Assembly: GCA_947628955.1 (NCBI GenBank)
Contig: CANRBX010000019.1
Coordinates: forward strand, 1 to 44,464
Direction: 5' to 3'
DNA length: 44,464 nt
Origin: an uncultured Lachnospiraceae bacterium
GTDB taxonomy: Bacteria; Bacillota; Clostridia; Lachnospirales; Lachnospiraceae
In this document: piece after piece, positions 654 through 28,579 of the stretch
Layout: every line of letters starts with the position of its first letter
Numbering within the stretch: position 1 is the stretch's first letter
The notes under the pieces: model-generated
Databases searched by the model: none
What the model saw: only the letters and a program-made list of their open reading frames with translations
Told to the model about the DNA's origin: nothing
Position numbers and translations under genes: made by a program

Positions 654-1028
654 ATGGCAAAACTGACAACAGCTGAGTTTATCGAAGCGATCAAAGAGTT
701 ATCTGTTCTTGAGCTGAATGAGCTCGTAAAGGCATGTGAGGAAGAGTTCGGCGTATCTGCAGCAGCAGGCGTTGTAGTTGCGGCAGCAGCAGGCCCGGCT
801 GAGGAAGCTGAGGAGAAGACCGAGTTTGACGTAGAGCTGACCGAGGTTGGCCCGTCCAAGGTTAAGGTTATCAAGGTTGTGCGTGAGGCTACAGGCCTTG
901 GCCTGAAAGAGGCAAAGGACGTAGTAGACAGCGCTCCGAAGGTGATCAAGGAGGGCATCTCCAAGGCAGAGGCAGAAGAGCTGAAGACAAAGCTCGAGGC
1001 AGAAGGCGCCAAAGTAACGTTAAAATAG
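654..1028 (+). CDS. rplL: Ribosomal protein L7/L12
   Basis: Encodes the 124-residue stalk protein L7/L12, which recruits and stimulates translational GTPases. An N-terminal dimerisation helix region ([20 protein letters not shown]), an Ala-rich hinge around residues 37-52 and the C-terminal domain with [20 protein letters not shown] are all present, and the length is normal. The ATG at 654 is preceded by AGGAGG at 640-645. The in-frame GTG at 609 has no ribosome site and is rejected. It is probably cotranscribed with rplJ. Unusually, rpoB does not follow; repeat family A and minus-strand genes do. Confidence 0.97.
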
Positions 1029-1177
1029 TCGCGAAAGCTACGAGCCGTGCGAAGATAAAAACGGACGTCAGTGGACAGATCAGAATGATCTGGTCCGCAG
1101 GCGTCCGTTTTTAGATTCATAGGGCGACAGCCCGCGCACGAGGGAAATGCGAAGCATTTCGCGAGTGAGCACGGCTC
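1029..1177 (+). repeat. Structured repeat element A1
   Basis: Starts directly at the rplL stop with TCGCGAAAGC (1029-1038). GAGCCGTGC (1042-1050) pairs perfectly with GCACGGCTC (1169-1177) and encloses three hairpins: 1057-1112; GGGC-GACA-GCCC (1122-1133); and GAAATGC-GAA-GCATTTC (1144-1160). The same frame recurs at 15911-16047, where hairpins 1 and 3 have quite different bases but still pair. I do not recognise the family. Confidence 0.8.
1057..1112 (+). terminator. Long hairpin after rplL ending in a T run
   Basis: AAAAACGGACG (1057-1067) pairs with CGTCCGTTTTT (1102-1112), and the inside pairs again (GGAC-AGATCA with TGATCT-GTCC). The T run closes the stem, so it can act as intrinsic terminator of rplJL. 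It is also hairpin 1 of repeat element A1. Confidence 0.75.
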
Positions 1178-1328
1178 GGACAGGAGAGAAGGTGCAACGC
1201 GCACGAGGGAAATGCGAAGCATTTCGCGAGTGAGCACGGCTCGGACAGGAGAGGAGGTGCAACGCGCACGAGGGAAATGCGGAGCATTTCACGAGTGAAC
1301 GCGGTGCGCTCAGTCTGCGGAAGTGGGG
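1134..1328. repeat. 65-bp tandem repeat, three units
   Basis: Units begin with GCGCACG at 1134, 1199 and 1264, an exact 65-base period. Each holds the GAAATGC-GAA-GCATTTC hairpin (GGA loop and small changes in unit 3) followed by a form of GCACGGCTC. Units 1 and 2 are almost identical; unit 3 is decayed at its 3' end. The array is a local amplification of the 3' half of element A1. Confidence 0.9.
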
Positions 1329-8497: not shown

Positions 8498-8549
8498 AAA
8501 AGAGGATATCCGGGACTGGCTGTCAGCCCTGTGGATATCCTCTTTTCTG
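8498..8549. terminator. Bidirectional terminator between feo and the TRAP operon
   Basis: AAAAGAGGATATCC (8498-8511) pairs with GGATATCCTCTTTT (8533-8546), with an inner GGCTG-TCAGCC pairing. A and T runs on both sides allow termination of feo (+) and of the minus-strand operon. Confidence 0.85.
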
Positions 8550-8550
8550 T

Positions 8551-8636
8551 GCGCAGGCCCGGGCAGGGAAATTAGCTGCTGACCGCAGCACCCGGGCCGC
8601 GCGACAAGCAGGGGCGAAGCCGCCTCCTACTCGATC
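8551..8636. repeat. Structured repeat element B1
   Basis: GGCCCGGG (8556-8563) pairs with CCCGGGCC (8591-8598) around GCTGC/GCAGC (8575-8579, 8585-8589). It is followed by GCGCGACAAG and a second hairpin centred on CGAAGCC. The block from GCAGGCCCGGG to CGACAAG is identical to 18741-18796. Both copies start within a few bases of the T run of an intrinsic terminator. Confidence 0.85.
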
Positions 8637-13363: not shown

Positions 13364-13469
13364 TGAAGCATATTCTACCATAGATATTGCTTTTACGCTA
13401 CCCCGAAAATGAAAATCTTCTGCACCTCTCGCCTTTTTGCGCCATACCCTGACAATTGGGGAAAGAATG

Positions 13470-13565
13470 ATGGATCATGCCAGAGCAAAGCTGCATGCGA
13501 ATGAGATCCGCAGAGCGGGGATCACGGGAAGGGGCATTACGGCTGCAGTGCCTGATTCCGGGTAA
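13470..13565 (+). pseudogene. Truncated copy of the start of an S8 protease
   Basis: Encodes 31 residues (MDHARAKLHANEIRRAGITG onward) and stops right after the block where the catalytic Asp sits (PDSG then TAA). It matches the first 31 codons of the intact S8 gene at 14977, and the similarity continues upstream through the ribosome site to 13416 (TCTTCTGCAC, matching 14922). The remaining ~270 codons are absent. It is a remnant of a second protease copy, separated from the intact one by nagA. Confidence 0.88.
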
Positions 13566-14761: not shown

Positions 14762-14976
14762 AGTTTCCTCCTGTTCTGCAGCGCCTGTTTTGGGGAGCGC
14801 CGCTGCAATTTTTGACAAAATTGTACCATATCGTCAGTTTTCTGGCAACTCCGTGCTGCAGCCTGCAGAATCCCTGCGGAACCCCGTTCGGAGCGCGCAG
14901 GCGTCCGCGCGGCAGTCCTGCTCTTCTGCACACCTCACCTTTTTGCGTCATACTCTGACAATGGGAGGAAAGAATT

Positions 14977-15873
14977 ATGGATCATGTCAGAGCAAAGCTG
15001 CACGCGAATGAGATCCACAGAGCGGGGATTACGGGAAGAGGCATTACGGCTGCAGTGCTTGATTCCGGTATCTGCAGGCATCCGGACTATGCGGACCGGA
15101 TTGCGGCATTTGAGGATTTAATAAATGGAAGAGAAACCTGTTATGACGACGCCTCCCATGGCAGCCATGTGTCCGGGATCTTGGGCGGGGACGGAAGAAG
15201 CTCGAGGGGGAAATACCGGGGGATCGCGCCGGGGTGTACGCTGATCCACGTGAAGGTGCTGGATCATCTGGGACAGGGGAGACTTGCGGATATTCTGCGG
15301 GGAATCGACTGGGTGATCGCCAACCGTGACCGTTTCCGGATCCGGATTTTGAATATCTCGGTAGGGACAACCCGGGGAGAGGACGACGAGGGGTCGCGGC
15401 TGCTTGTGGAGCGCGTGGAGGAGGCCTGGGACTGCGGGCTGGTCGTCGTGGCTGCGGCGGGAAACATGGGGCCGGATCCGATGAGCATCACGGCCCCGGG
15501 AAACAGCCGGAAGGTGATCACGGTCGGCTCGTCGACGCAGTTCCGGTACCGCCAGGCAAATGTGAATGCGAATTACTCCGGCTGCGGGCCGACGCAGGAG
15601 TGCGTCTGCAAGCCGGAGCTTGTGGTTCCGGGAACCGATATCGTATCGTGCTCGTCGGCCTGGCAGCAGGGGCGCTATTACGCGCGCAAGAGCGGAACCT
15701 CGATGTCGGCCCCCGCGGTGGCCGGCTGCGCGGCGCTGCTTCTGGAGCAGGAGCCCTGGCTGAGCAATGTGGAGGTCAAAATGCGGCTCAAGGAGGCGGC
15801 GGCAGACATCGGCCTCCCACAGAACCGCCAGGGCTGGGGCATGCCGGACCTGCGGAAACTGCTGAGGCTGTAG
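14977..15873 (+). CDS. S8 family serine protease (subtilisin-like)
   Basis: A 298-residue subtilase without a signal peptide. The triad is complete: D29 (AVLDSG), H61 (SHGSHVSG) and S242 (SGTSMSAP), with the oxyanion Asn in AAAGNMGP. The short start MDHVRAKLHANEIHRAGITG has no classical prodomain, so it may act inside the cell or be exported by another route. The ATG has GGGAGGAAAGAATT upstream. It is close in type to intracellular clostridial subtilases. Repeat element A2 follows 38 bases after the stop. A truncated copy lies at 13470. Confidence 0.93.
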   Translation: MDHVRAKLHANEIHRAGITGRGITAAVLDSGICRHPDYADRIAAFEDLINGRETCYDDASHGSHVSGILGGDGRSSRGKYRGIAPGCTLIHVKVLDHLGQGRLADILRGIDWVIANRDRFRIRILNISVGTTRGEDDEGSRLLVERVEEAWDCGLVVVAAAGNMGPDPMSITAPGNSRKVITVGSSTQFRYRQANVNANYSGCGPTQECVCKPELVVPGTDIVSCSSAWQQGRYYARKSGTSMSAPAVAGCAALLLEQEPWLSNVEVKMRLKEAAADIGLPQNRQGWGMPDLRKLLRL

Positions 15874-15910
15874 TACAGCTTGTCCCAGAGCCCACAATAT
15901 GGTAAAATGT

Positions 15911-16047
15911 TCGCGAAAGCATTGAGCCGTGCAAAGGCAGTGGATGGCAAAATGACTGCTTGCACGTCATTTTGCCAGACAGTGACTTTATAGGGCGAAA
16001 GCCCGCGACCGAGAAAAACCGAAGGTTTTTCGAGGGCGGCACGGCTC
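15911..16047 (+). repeat. Structured repeat element A2
   Basis: Same frame as A1: TCGCGAAAGC (15911-15920), then GAGCCGTGC (15924-15932) pairing with GCACGGCTC (16039-16047). Inside are hairpin 1, GGCAAAATGAC (15946-15956) with GTCATTTTGCC (15966-15976); GGGC-GAAA-GCCC (15993-16004); and AAAAACC-GAA-GGTTTTT (16014-16030). Hairpins 1 and 3 differ in bases from A1 but keep pairing. Confidence 0.8.
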
Positions 16048-16210
16048 AATAGCTGCGCAGGCAGCCGTTTTCGTCAGGCGTCAGCTTTATAGGGCGAAAG
16101 CCCGCGACCGAGAAAAACCGAAGGTTTTTCGAGGGCGGCACGGCTCAGACGCTCGCAGGCAGCCGTTTTCGTCAGGCGTCAGCTTTATAGGGCGCAGGCC
16201 CGCGGCCTGC
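15993..16210. repeat. About 99-bp tandem repeat, two units and a partial third
   Basis: The GGGCGAAAGCCC block recurs at 15993, 16092 and, as GGGCGCAGGCCC, at 16190, a period of 99 then 98 bases. Units carry AAAAACC-GAA-GGTTTTT and GCACGGCTC. The spacers start and end with self-pairing ends that differ (AGCTG/CAGCT, then GACGC/GCGTC). It is an amplification of the 3' part of A2, independent of the 65-bp array at A1. Confidence 0.88.
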
Positions 16211-16245: not shown

Positions 16246-17196
16246 TTGGCAAGGAAGAAGCAGGAGAGGATGGAGTTCCGCTATTACGAAATGCCCCGGG
16301 GAAGCTATATACTCCCCATGCTCGGCGAGCACTGGCGGCGGCCCTACGGGTATGACACGGAATATCTCCATTTTCACAATTATCTGGAGATCGGCTACTG
16401 CTATGACGGCGAGGGAACCCTGCTGCTGAACGACCGGGAATGCCCTTATTTTGCAAACACCTTCTCCGTGATCCCGCCCAATTTCCCGCACAGCACCGTG
16501 AGCGCGCAGGGCGGCCATTCGGTCAGCAGCTGGGAGTATCTTTTCATCGATGTGGAAGGATTCCTGCGCGACACCTATCCGGACCGTCCGAGATTTGCGC
16601 AGGAGCTGCAGAAGAGGATCTACAAGACGGCCCATTTCCTCACCAGCGAGGGCAGCCATGTGCTGGCGGAGCTGATCCAGGAGGTGATCCGTGAATCGCG
16701 GTATCAGGAGGAGTACTATAAAGAGAAGCTGCGGGGCCTTCTGCTGAACATCTTTGTGGAGATCGCGCGCCTCTCCCCGGCAGAGCCGTCGCAGAGGGAG
16801 AGCGTGCAGGACGACCGGAACAATCAGGTGAAGATCAGCAACGCGCTGCACCATATCGGCAAGCACTACAGTGAGCACATCCATATCGGGACGCTGGCTG
16901 AAAAGTGCAGCCTGAGCGAGACACATTTCCGCAGGGTGTTCCGGGATGTGATGAATATGACGCCCATGGAATATGTGAATTATGTGCGCATTCAGACGGC
17001 CTGCAATCTGATGGAGCGGACAGATGCCTCGATCGAAGAAATCGCGATGAAGACGGGATTTATCTCCCTGTCGACCTTCAACCGGAATTTCCGGAAGGTC
17101 ATGCACATGTCGCCGCACCAGTGGCGGCGCAGGCCGGATTCCCCGGCGAACTACCGCCACGGCTACAATGTGAAGCTTGAGGACGGATGGGAGTGA
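16246..17196 (+). CDS. AraC-family transcriptional regulator
   Basis: A 316-residue regulator with an N-terminal cupin-like sugar-sensing domain (HNYLEIGYCYDGEGTLLLND, then SVIPPNFPHSTV) and a C-terminal double helix-turn-helix (IGTLAEKCSLSETHFRRVFR, then ASIEEIAMKTGFISLSTFNR, ending MSPHQWRRR). The TTG at 16246 sits seven bases after AAGGAGGAAG and is preferred to the ATG at 16270, whose AGGAG is only three bases away. It lies directly before the sugar ABC genes, and a 21-bp-spaced direct repeat in that promoter fits AraC-type binding. It is most likely their activator. Confidence 0.92.
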   Translation: MARKKQERMEFRYYEMPRGSYILPMLGEHWRRPYGYDTEYLHFHNYLEIGYCYDGEGTLLLNDRECPYFANTFSVIPPNFPHSTVSAQGGHSVSSWEYLFIDVEGFLRDTYPDRPRFAQELQKRIYKTAHFLTSEGSHVLAELIQEVIRESRYQEEYYKEKLRGLLLNIFVEIARLSPAEPSQRESVQDDRNNQVKISNALHHIGKHYSEHIHIGTLAEKCSLSETHFRRVFRDVMNMTPMEYVNYVRIQTACNLMERTDASIEEIAMKTGFISLSTFNRNFRKVMHMSPHQWRRRPDSPANYRHGYNVKLEDGWE

Positions 17197-18700: not shown

Positions 18701-18735
18701 GGGGGAACGGTTCTTCGGACCCGTTCCCCCGTTTT
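18701..18735 (+). terminator. Terminator between binding protein and permeases
   Basis: GGGGGAACGG (18701-18710) pairs with CCGTTCCCCC (18721-18730), followed by GTTTTA. It probably terminates a large share of transcripts so that the binding protein is made in excess over the permeases. Confidence 0.85.
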
Positions 18736-18740
18736 AGCTC

Positions 18741-18823
18741 GCAGGCCCGGGCAGGGAAATTAGCTGCTGACCGCAGCACCCGGGCCGCGCGACAAGTAGG
18801 AGGCGAAGCCGCCTCCTACTCGA
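18741..18823 (+). repeat. Structured repeat element B2
   Basis: GGCCCGGG (18744-18751) pairs with CCCGGGCC (18779-18786) around GCTGC/GCAGC, then GCGCGACAAG and TAGGAGGC-GAAGCC-GCCTCCTA (18797-18818). It is nearly identical to B1. In this locus CCCGGGCCGC (18779-18788) could instead pair with GCGGCCCGGG (18876-18885), which is followed by TTTTA. Confidence 0.85.
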
Positions 18824-28329: not shown

Positions 28330-28511
28330 CAAAATGCTGCTGAATCATTTTCCTACGGCCTCAGCAGCAAGTGCTTCGGCCTGGTCTGAACAGTGATGTT
28401 GGGGTCAAATGATGCCATACGGATTGTTCCGTGCTGCGCACTCCCACAATCCTGCCCAACATTCGGAATTCATGGGGCCCCTGCCCCACTTCTTCCTCAT
28501 GTTTGGGCGGG

Positions 28512-28569
28512 TCATTAAGTCATAAAACCACTTCTGCGCAAGCGCATCGTGGTTTATGACTTTTGCCCC
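28512..28569. repeat. Repeat element C1
   Basis: TCATTAA, then GTCATAAAACCAC (28519-28531) pairing with GTGGTTTATGAC (28549-28560), then TTTTGCCCC. It matches 30149-30204. The remainder of the gap 28330-28511 has no gene I can support; a minus-strand frame through it looks like a by-product of the repeat. Confidence 0.75.
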
Positions 28570-28579
28570 TGGCATCATA

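Follow-up and report, generated by a model that had tools for sequence, protein, structure and literature searches.

Two copies of a folded repeat in the window

The window, by which we mean the whole 44,464-nucleotide stretch of DNA from an uncultured Lachnospiraceae bacterium analysed here, carries two full-length copies of a folded repeat, one behind a ribosomal protein gene and the other ahead of a gene for an AraC-family regulator (Table 1). An earlier note on this DNA had read copy 1 as a closing stem around three hairpins, and its sequence and coordinates proved correct, with copy 2 occupying the interval given in the table. The TAG stop codon of rplL is followed by a gap of one nucleotide and then directly by copy 1, whereas copy 2 starts 38 nt past the upstream stop codon and exactly 3 nt past a TAAAAT hexamer, so that the claim that both copies stand right after a stop codon holds for copy 1 only. 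The GAA loop that the note had assigned to hairpin 1 of copy 2 was likewise misread, the loop there being different, and the extra tandem 3' units on both copies were missing from its account. The predicted folds gave z-scores of -10.5 for copy 1 and -7.8 for copy 2, with none of 200 shuffles as good in either case. Copy 2 would be the leader of the AraC-family gene.

Table 1. Features in and around the two repeat copies and elsewhere in the window; R1 scores come from a covariance model (CM) built from 36 sequences that include both copies.
Feature	Position	Strand	Remarks
rplL (ribosomal protein L7/L12)	654..1028	+	Named by eye; ORF 609-1028; matches in 39/47 congeneric genomes
Element copy 1, full length	1030..1177	+	CM R1 95.4 bits, E 6.3e-21 in own genome
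Start of copy 1, CGCGAAAGC	1030-1038	+	
5'-terminal CGC of copy 1	1030..1032	+	Proposed partner GCG 1134-1136
Closing stem of copy 1, 5' strand GAGCCGTGC	1042..1050	+	Partner 1169-1177
Hairpin 1 of copy 1	1051..1118	+	Hypervariable arms, A-rich foot, TTTTT near end; terminator-like
Hairpin 2 of copy 1	1122..1136	+	GGGC-GACA-GCCC plus GCG; near invariant across the family
Hairpin 3 of copy 1	1144..1160	+	GAAATGC-GAA-GCATTTC; arms covary
Closing stem of copy 1, 3' strand GCACGGCTC	1169..1177	+	Partner 1042-1050
Extra tandem 3' unit of copy 1 (hairpin 3 and closing strand)	1198..1242	+	100% match to copy 1 end
Second extra 3' unit of copy 1, decayed	1263..1304	+	90% match
Gene read as subtilase, upstream of copy 2	14977-15873		Stop codon 15871-15873
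Promoter-like site TTGTCC-17-TAAAAT	15880..15908	+	TG before -10; 9/12 consensus positions; ends 3 nt before copy 2
Element copy 2, full length	15912..16047	+	CM R1 136.2 bits, E 3.5e-31
Extra tandem 3' unit of copy 2	16085..16147	+	Identical to 15986-16048
Third 3' unit of copy 2, fragment	16183..16207	+	E 0.065
AraC-family regulator	16246..17196	+	Start TTG 16246 or ATG 16270; HTH_18 E 9e-25, AraC_binding 2.9e-9
Second palindromic interspersed repeat (GCGCAGGCCCGGGCAGGGAAATTAGCTGCTG..CAGCACCCGGGCCGCGC)	8539-8612 and 18727-18800		91% alike
Direct repeat, 102 nt	13460-13561 and 14967-15068		93% alike
Clostridiales-1 RNA (RF01699)	28410-28577	-	136.8 bits

The rplL site was compared by eye across relatives: at least 6 of 31 loci hold the element or its remains, and many others carry a plain terminator after the gene (for example GGGGACTCC..GGAGTCCCCTTTTT). 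Since the element or its remains recur at these loci, copy 1 is best read as an old insertion that has been kept vertically and not as a recent arrival. Its hairpin 1 was absent from the output of a simple terminator scan of positions 1-2000. The arms of this hairpin were also considered as guides to another locus, and a BLAST-type search of the own genome at E 0.001 gave no second locus, the last bases excepted. Look-alikes of the second palindromic repeat of the window lie downstream of rplL in two relatives (L448 and L450).

Fold, covariation and spread of the family

Copy 2, used as a DNA query against the own genome, returned many full and partial copies, of which 36 of the 41 full-length elements were aligned (alignment A1) and used to build the covariance model R1. 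R1 gave 37 matches in the own genome at E up to 1; it was positive in 40 of 47 congeneric genomes, with 0-41 matches each and 387 in sum, and in 54 of the 295 genomes and 30 of the 130 genera of an order-wide sample. These counts are lower bounds, because the filters were strict and the candidates scored per genome were limited to at most 10 in the order scan and 69 in the genus scan. An exact 21-base pattern recovered 81 stretches from named genomes, mostly in Lachnospiraceae records; at least eight of them, in other phyla or classes, were taken as chance. Parablautia sp. Marseille-Q6255, a cultured bacterium, is one of the carriers. A phage origin was set aside on the same ground, as a single viral contig had the pattern, lacked the 3' part and was taken as a chance match.

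The element is about 136 nt long, comprises three hairpins and the closing stem, and has a near-invariant core, ATAGGGCG..GCCCGCG. The note's description of it as unrecognised stood: at the gathering threshold Rfam contained no matching family for the element, and a search of positions 900-1400 at E up to 10 returned chance-level matches and nothing relevant. Our literature search, which covered open-licence papers, found no report of this repeat family or its register; a survey of 3161 candidate RNAs from human microbiomes may include the family (PMC8040213).

Pairing is strongly conserved. In A1, 93.5% of cells were paired and the covariation score was 0.413 against 0.136 in shuffled alignments; in a second alignment, A2, which holds 105 sequences matched at 100 fetched loci and is biased toward R1 because they were fitted to that model, 91.7% of cells were paired and the score was 0.377 against 0.137, a value reached by none of 500 shuffles. 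Sliding the partners by 1-3 columns lowered pairing in A2 to 32-48%. Hairpins 1 and 3 showed covariation at every pair, and the closing stem, near-fixed within the genus, changes on both sides in distant genera with pairing kept (AAGCCATGC/GCATGGCTT, AAGCAGTGC/GCACTGCTT, GAGCGGTGC/GCACCGCTC). The hairpin arms that the earlier note had seen to differ between its two copies while remaining self-complementary are real, with strong covariation over 36 and 105 aligned elements.

Mismatch types were counted in the sense strand over rows that are related and not independent: G-U exceeded A-C by 35:12 in hairpin 1, 25:10 in the closing stem, 21:12 in the 5' mini-hairpin, 4:2 in hairpin 2 and 50:3 in hairpin 3, where most G-U cells came from one column. 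This preference suggests that the strand which folds is the sense strand and, together with the covarying stems, bears out the note's suggestion of selection for structure.

The modules of the element also vary as units. At one orthologous site (G022:C114 and G043:C3) hairpin 1 is unrelated between the two genomes whereas hairpin 3 and the flanks are conserved, and at asnS a 41-nt hairpin sits inside the hairpin-2 loop in genome G043 and is absent from G041. The latter is a nested repeat (G043:C39:10336-10515 against G041:C1:172544-172682), and similar inserts occur in copies from other genomes. The inner part of the element forms a tandem array on G011:C4 (L287), with a start-to-start distance of about 131 nt, and another at L243 in G003; like modular repeats, the family thus varies in the number of modules in tandem, both in the 3' units of the window and in the G011:C4 array. 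A T-tract at the end of hairpin 1 was found in 5 of 12 copies with the GCTA/GCTG start, the sub-type of copy 1, and in 2 of 114 others.

An additional pairing was found between the 5'-terminal CGC and the GCG directly after hairpin 2. In A2, 99.0% of these cells were paired (slid controls, 0.7 to 62.4%), and double changes replaced CGC/GCG by CAC with GTG in 9 rows and by CGT with ACG in 6. The cells changed on both sides (15, against 2.6 in shuffled alignments) and the covariation score (0.271 against 0.186) lay above every shuffle, while the number of double-changed pairs and the pair types, two of the five measures, did not (282 of 500 shuffles reach them). Across a census of 127 elements, all three pairs were standard in 116, compared with a shuffled mean of 99.2 and a maximum of 106. 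Because the closing stem encloses one of the two strands and not the other, the pairing would be a pseudoknot, and it is incompatible with the small GC-GAAA-GC 5' hairpin drawn by fold programs.

Placement of the 5' edge

To locate the 5' edge we scored 126 elements: 120 fetched ones, taken from the top of a match list, with 387 matches in total, and 13 from the own genome, in all 133, reduced to 130 by removing duplicates and to 126 by removing four with short upstream sequences. A -10 hexamer directly before the element was found in 42 copies (background at shifted positions, 2.0%), a terminator T-tract with its stem in 23 (0.6%), and an ORF end, meaning a stop codon 0-8 nt upstream or an upstream frame ended by a stop that the element supplies, in 38 (3.5%, for the stop-codon test only); the remaining 23 fitted none of these contexts. 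The distance from hexamer to element is exactly 3 nt in 40 of the 126 copies, whereas each of the other spacings, out to 40 nt, accounts for 0-5. Among these 40 there are 31 distinct upstream sequences, a TG before the hexamer in 22 (2.5 expected) and, on average, 2.5 mismatches to the -35 sequence against 3.6 in the background. Runs of T end at distance 0 from the element. At gene ends the stop codon is contained in the first-base variants CGTGAAAGC, CGCGTAAGC and CACGTAAGC, and one copy (G011:C31) combines the 3-nt register with a position directly after a stop codon. Upstream, T occupies position -2 in 113 and position -4 in 99 of 128 elements, and no constant target tetranucleotide occurs among these 128.

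T-box terminators are among the terminator sites, as at a locus of the own genome (L016) where an RF00230 match at 1224-1478 is followed by an element from 1502, and in distant genera some copies stand directly after tRNA genes, as judged by eye, with one tRNA confirmed (L404). A reverse-strand ORF ends at the 3' edge of the element in 34 of 122 cases, which were left out of the analysis since long shadow frames occur frequently here. Among the 23 unplaced copies, some may be flanked by convergent genes. Downstream, a same-strand ORF with a ribosome-binding site begins within 450 nt in 84 of 126 copies, and in 47 of the 65 behind a -10 hexamer or T-tract. The proteins encoded by 53 non-repeated ORFs of 63 matched 70 Pfam families, none in more than two members, a scan in which recurring genes are under-counted because it left out the 10 ORFs that repeat gene kinds in the list, such as further valS genes. 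Among all 63, genes for valS (4) and a substrate-binding protein (3) recur between species.

Comparison of orthologous loci revealed filled and empty sites. Ahead of rsmD a promoter of the TTGACA/TATAAT type is present at all 30 loci, and the element, which begins after TATAATGTT, at one, that of the window's genome. Thirty asnS loci were located, 29 of them with enough upstream DNA; the element is present in two (G041 and G043) and absent from the other 27. The empty site in the close relative G015 reads TATAATAAAAATCAAAC... (TATAATA-AAAATCAAACAAAAAAGGAG) and the filled site in G041 reads TATAATA, 141 nt and then AGACTTAC... (TATAATA-[141 nt]-AGACTTACAAAAAGGAG), with both flanks kept. The empty rsmD and asnS sites therefore show insertion into existing promoters. 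At valS the element follows the T-tract of the T-box terminator by 0-1 nt in 8 of 30 loci and by 6 nt in a ninth; in nine others no more than 17-31 nt separate the T-tract from the start codon, and partial or look-alike elements occupy several of the rest. The asnS gene of another genome, G010, has a look-alike leader (L470, upstream of 1500) in the same register behind TATAATGTC with a different closing stem, GGGCAGAGCC/GGCTCTGCCC, possibly a sister family.

No target-site duplication was found at asnS, and none was consistent in the one sub-family that has terminal inverted repeats (TTCGTGTTTAG..CTAAACACGAA). The 5' end of this sub-family occurs at 20 places in the 47 genomes, with no facing pair around a gene that would mark an autonomous parent. 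The family resembles MITEs in being short, non-autonomous, dispersed and intergenic. The earlier note had named a match to a known Rfam family or a MITE as something that would refute its reading: Rfam supplied none, and the elements are MITE-like, but with stems that covary, so that this counts against the note only by half.

Origin of the placement and related systems

The elements are dispersed beside unrelated genes, are present or absent between relatives, exchange modules and keep a fixed 5' register. We conclude, with a probability of roughly three in four, that they are non-autonomous structured interspersed repeats of a MITE- or BOX-like kind, moved in trans in Lachnospiraceae and related families. 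The machinery acting in trans would recognise a folded single strand through the 5'-terminal CGC, the closing stem and hairpin 2, and would join its 5' end behind T-rich target DNA of the form T-N-T-N, preferably where RNA polymerase has opened the DNA at promoters and terminators. Once inserted, the element would be transcribed as a 5' leader, an intercistronic spacer or a 3' end, and at gene ends could serve as a terminator, as copy 1 may do after rplL. It may be tolerated because it supplies stop codons, rarely carries the T-tract in leaders and can terminate at gene ends. Because the asnS insertion is clean and the 3-nt spacing exact, we favour a register set by the insertion machinery over one set by later selection.

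Several other explanations bear on the same observations. The family might be a cis-regulatory RNA leader, sensing a signal or setting mRNA stability, that many operons have recruited and whose position at +1 and behind attenuators was selected for function. The 65 copies behind promoters or terminators, of which 47 precede the start of a same-strand ORF by at most 450 nt, the conserved structure with its sense-strand G-U preference, the near-invariant core and the several T-box genes among the neighbours would all suit such a leader, but a riboswitch or shared regulon should have left a common theme among the 53 non-repeated downstream proteins, which have none, copy number swings widely between congeners, and copies also stand behind stop codons and tRNA genes. 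The terminal pairing bears on this question as well. Canonical -10 spacing would put the first three bases of the element upstream of +1 in the promoter copies, yet double-changed forms of CGC/GCG occur in 5 of the 40 copies behind a -10 box; in that position the bases would be conserved for more than a role in RNA, a hint that the pairing constrains folded single-stranded DNA as well as RNA. On balance we consider the recruited leader improbable. Still less credit is due to the idea, raised in the earlier note, that gene-end copies are intrinsic terminators or stabilisers of mRNA 3' ends with decorative repeats. The TTTTT that ends hairpin 1 of copy 1 and the plain terminators that follow rplL in many relatives fit it, and for the sub-type to which copy 1 belongs a terminator is fitting; a T-tract at the end of hairpin 1, however, is present in only 7 of 126 copies, and the 65 copies behind a -10 box or terminator T-tract, where termination would silence the gene, contradict a 3'-end RNA element as a general description.

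Mobilisation by a Y1 transposase, as for IS200/IS605 or REP/RAYT-type elements, would account for single-strand hairpins, a T-rich 5' flank and the absence of target duplication. The CGC/GCG pairing of a terminal triplet with one beside a hairpin may also resemble the pairing of guide and cleavage site in such elements. The transposase (PF01797) was found in 25 of 47 genomes, including three (G041, G004 and G043) of the eight with at least 24 matches, but it was not found in the other five (G000, G022, G016, G015 and G034; 24-41 matches each, all draft assemblies), so that its occurrence does not track copy number, and the target tetranucleotide is not constant. We regard a Y1 transposase as unlikely to be the driver, and the whole Y1-type explanation as very doubtful.

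Returning to repeats moved in trans, a more specific version, which we put forward tentatively and hold to be possible but well short of probable, is a transcription-targeted mobile element: an enzyme would join the folded strand with its CGC/GCG pairing into DNA that polymerase has melted, both in the -10/+1 bubble and where transcription terminates, and with each insertion a working promoter or attenuator would acquire a new 5' leader. Repeats this long are commonly regarded as junk tolerated in gaps, whereas this family hits the punctuation marks of expression with nucleotide precision and forms the leaders of housekeeping genes in gut bacteria, such as those read as valS, leuA, asnS and rsmD. 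If targeting of open promoters is true, the insertion specificity is a new one, and its enzyme is yet to be found; if the register is due to selection, the leaders make up a class of mRNA 5' structures that has yet to be studied.

Exact placement at gene edges is unusual in a repeat of this type. Group IIC introns insert beside intrinsic terminators; our elements differ from them in being without an intron family match at the gathering score and in using promoters and stop codons as well. In the parts of its description consulted, BOX of Streptococcus pneumoniae is a short modular interspersed repeat that folds tightly if transcribed, has variable tandem modules, terminal inverted repeats and target duplications, and is regarded as a low-rate parasite; two T boxes flank one of its copies, and its over-representation between convergent genes is read there as tolerance of a parasite (PMC3049150). 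Compared with that description, the present family is likewise short, modular and folded, with tandem modules in variable number, but unlike BOX it follows promoters, terminators and stop codons in an exact register, often in leaders. REP palindromes, in the portion of the source consulted, are palindromic, extragenic, high-copy sequences of 20-40 bp (PMC3733652); the elements share the first three properties but, with three hairpins plus the closing stem, extend to about 136 nt. ERIC, Correia and similar MITEs are described, in the sections consulted, as non-autonomous, intergenic and transcribed stem-loops that alter the expression of their neighbours, one Correia copy lying just downstream of the mtrCDE promoter (PMC10969869). 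Unlike ERIC and Correia as described there, our elements have inverted repeats in one sub-family only and target duplications in none, and combine a pseudoknot-type pairing with a constant spacing of 3 nt from the -10 hexamer.
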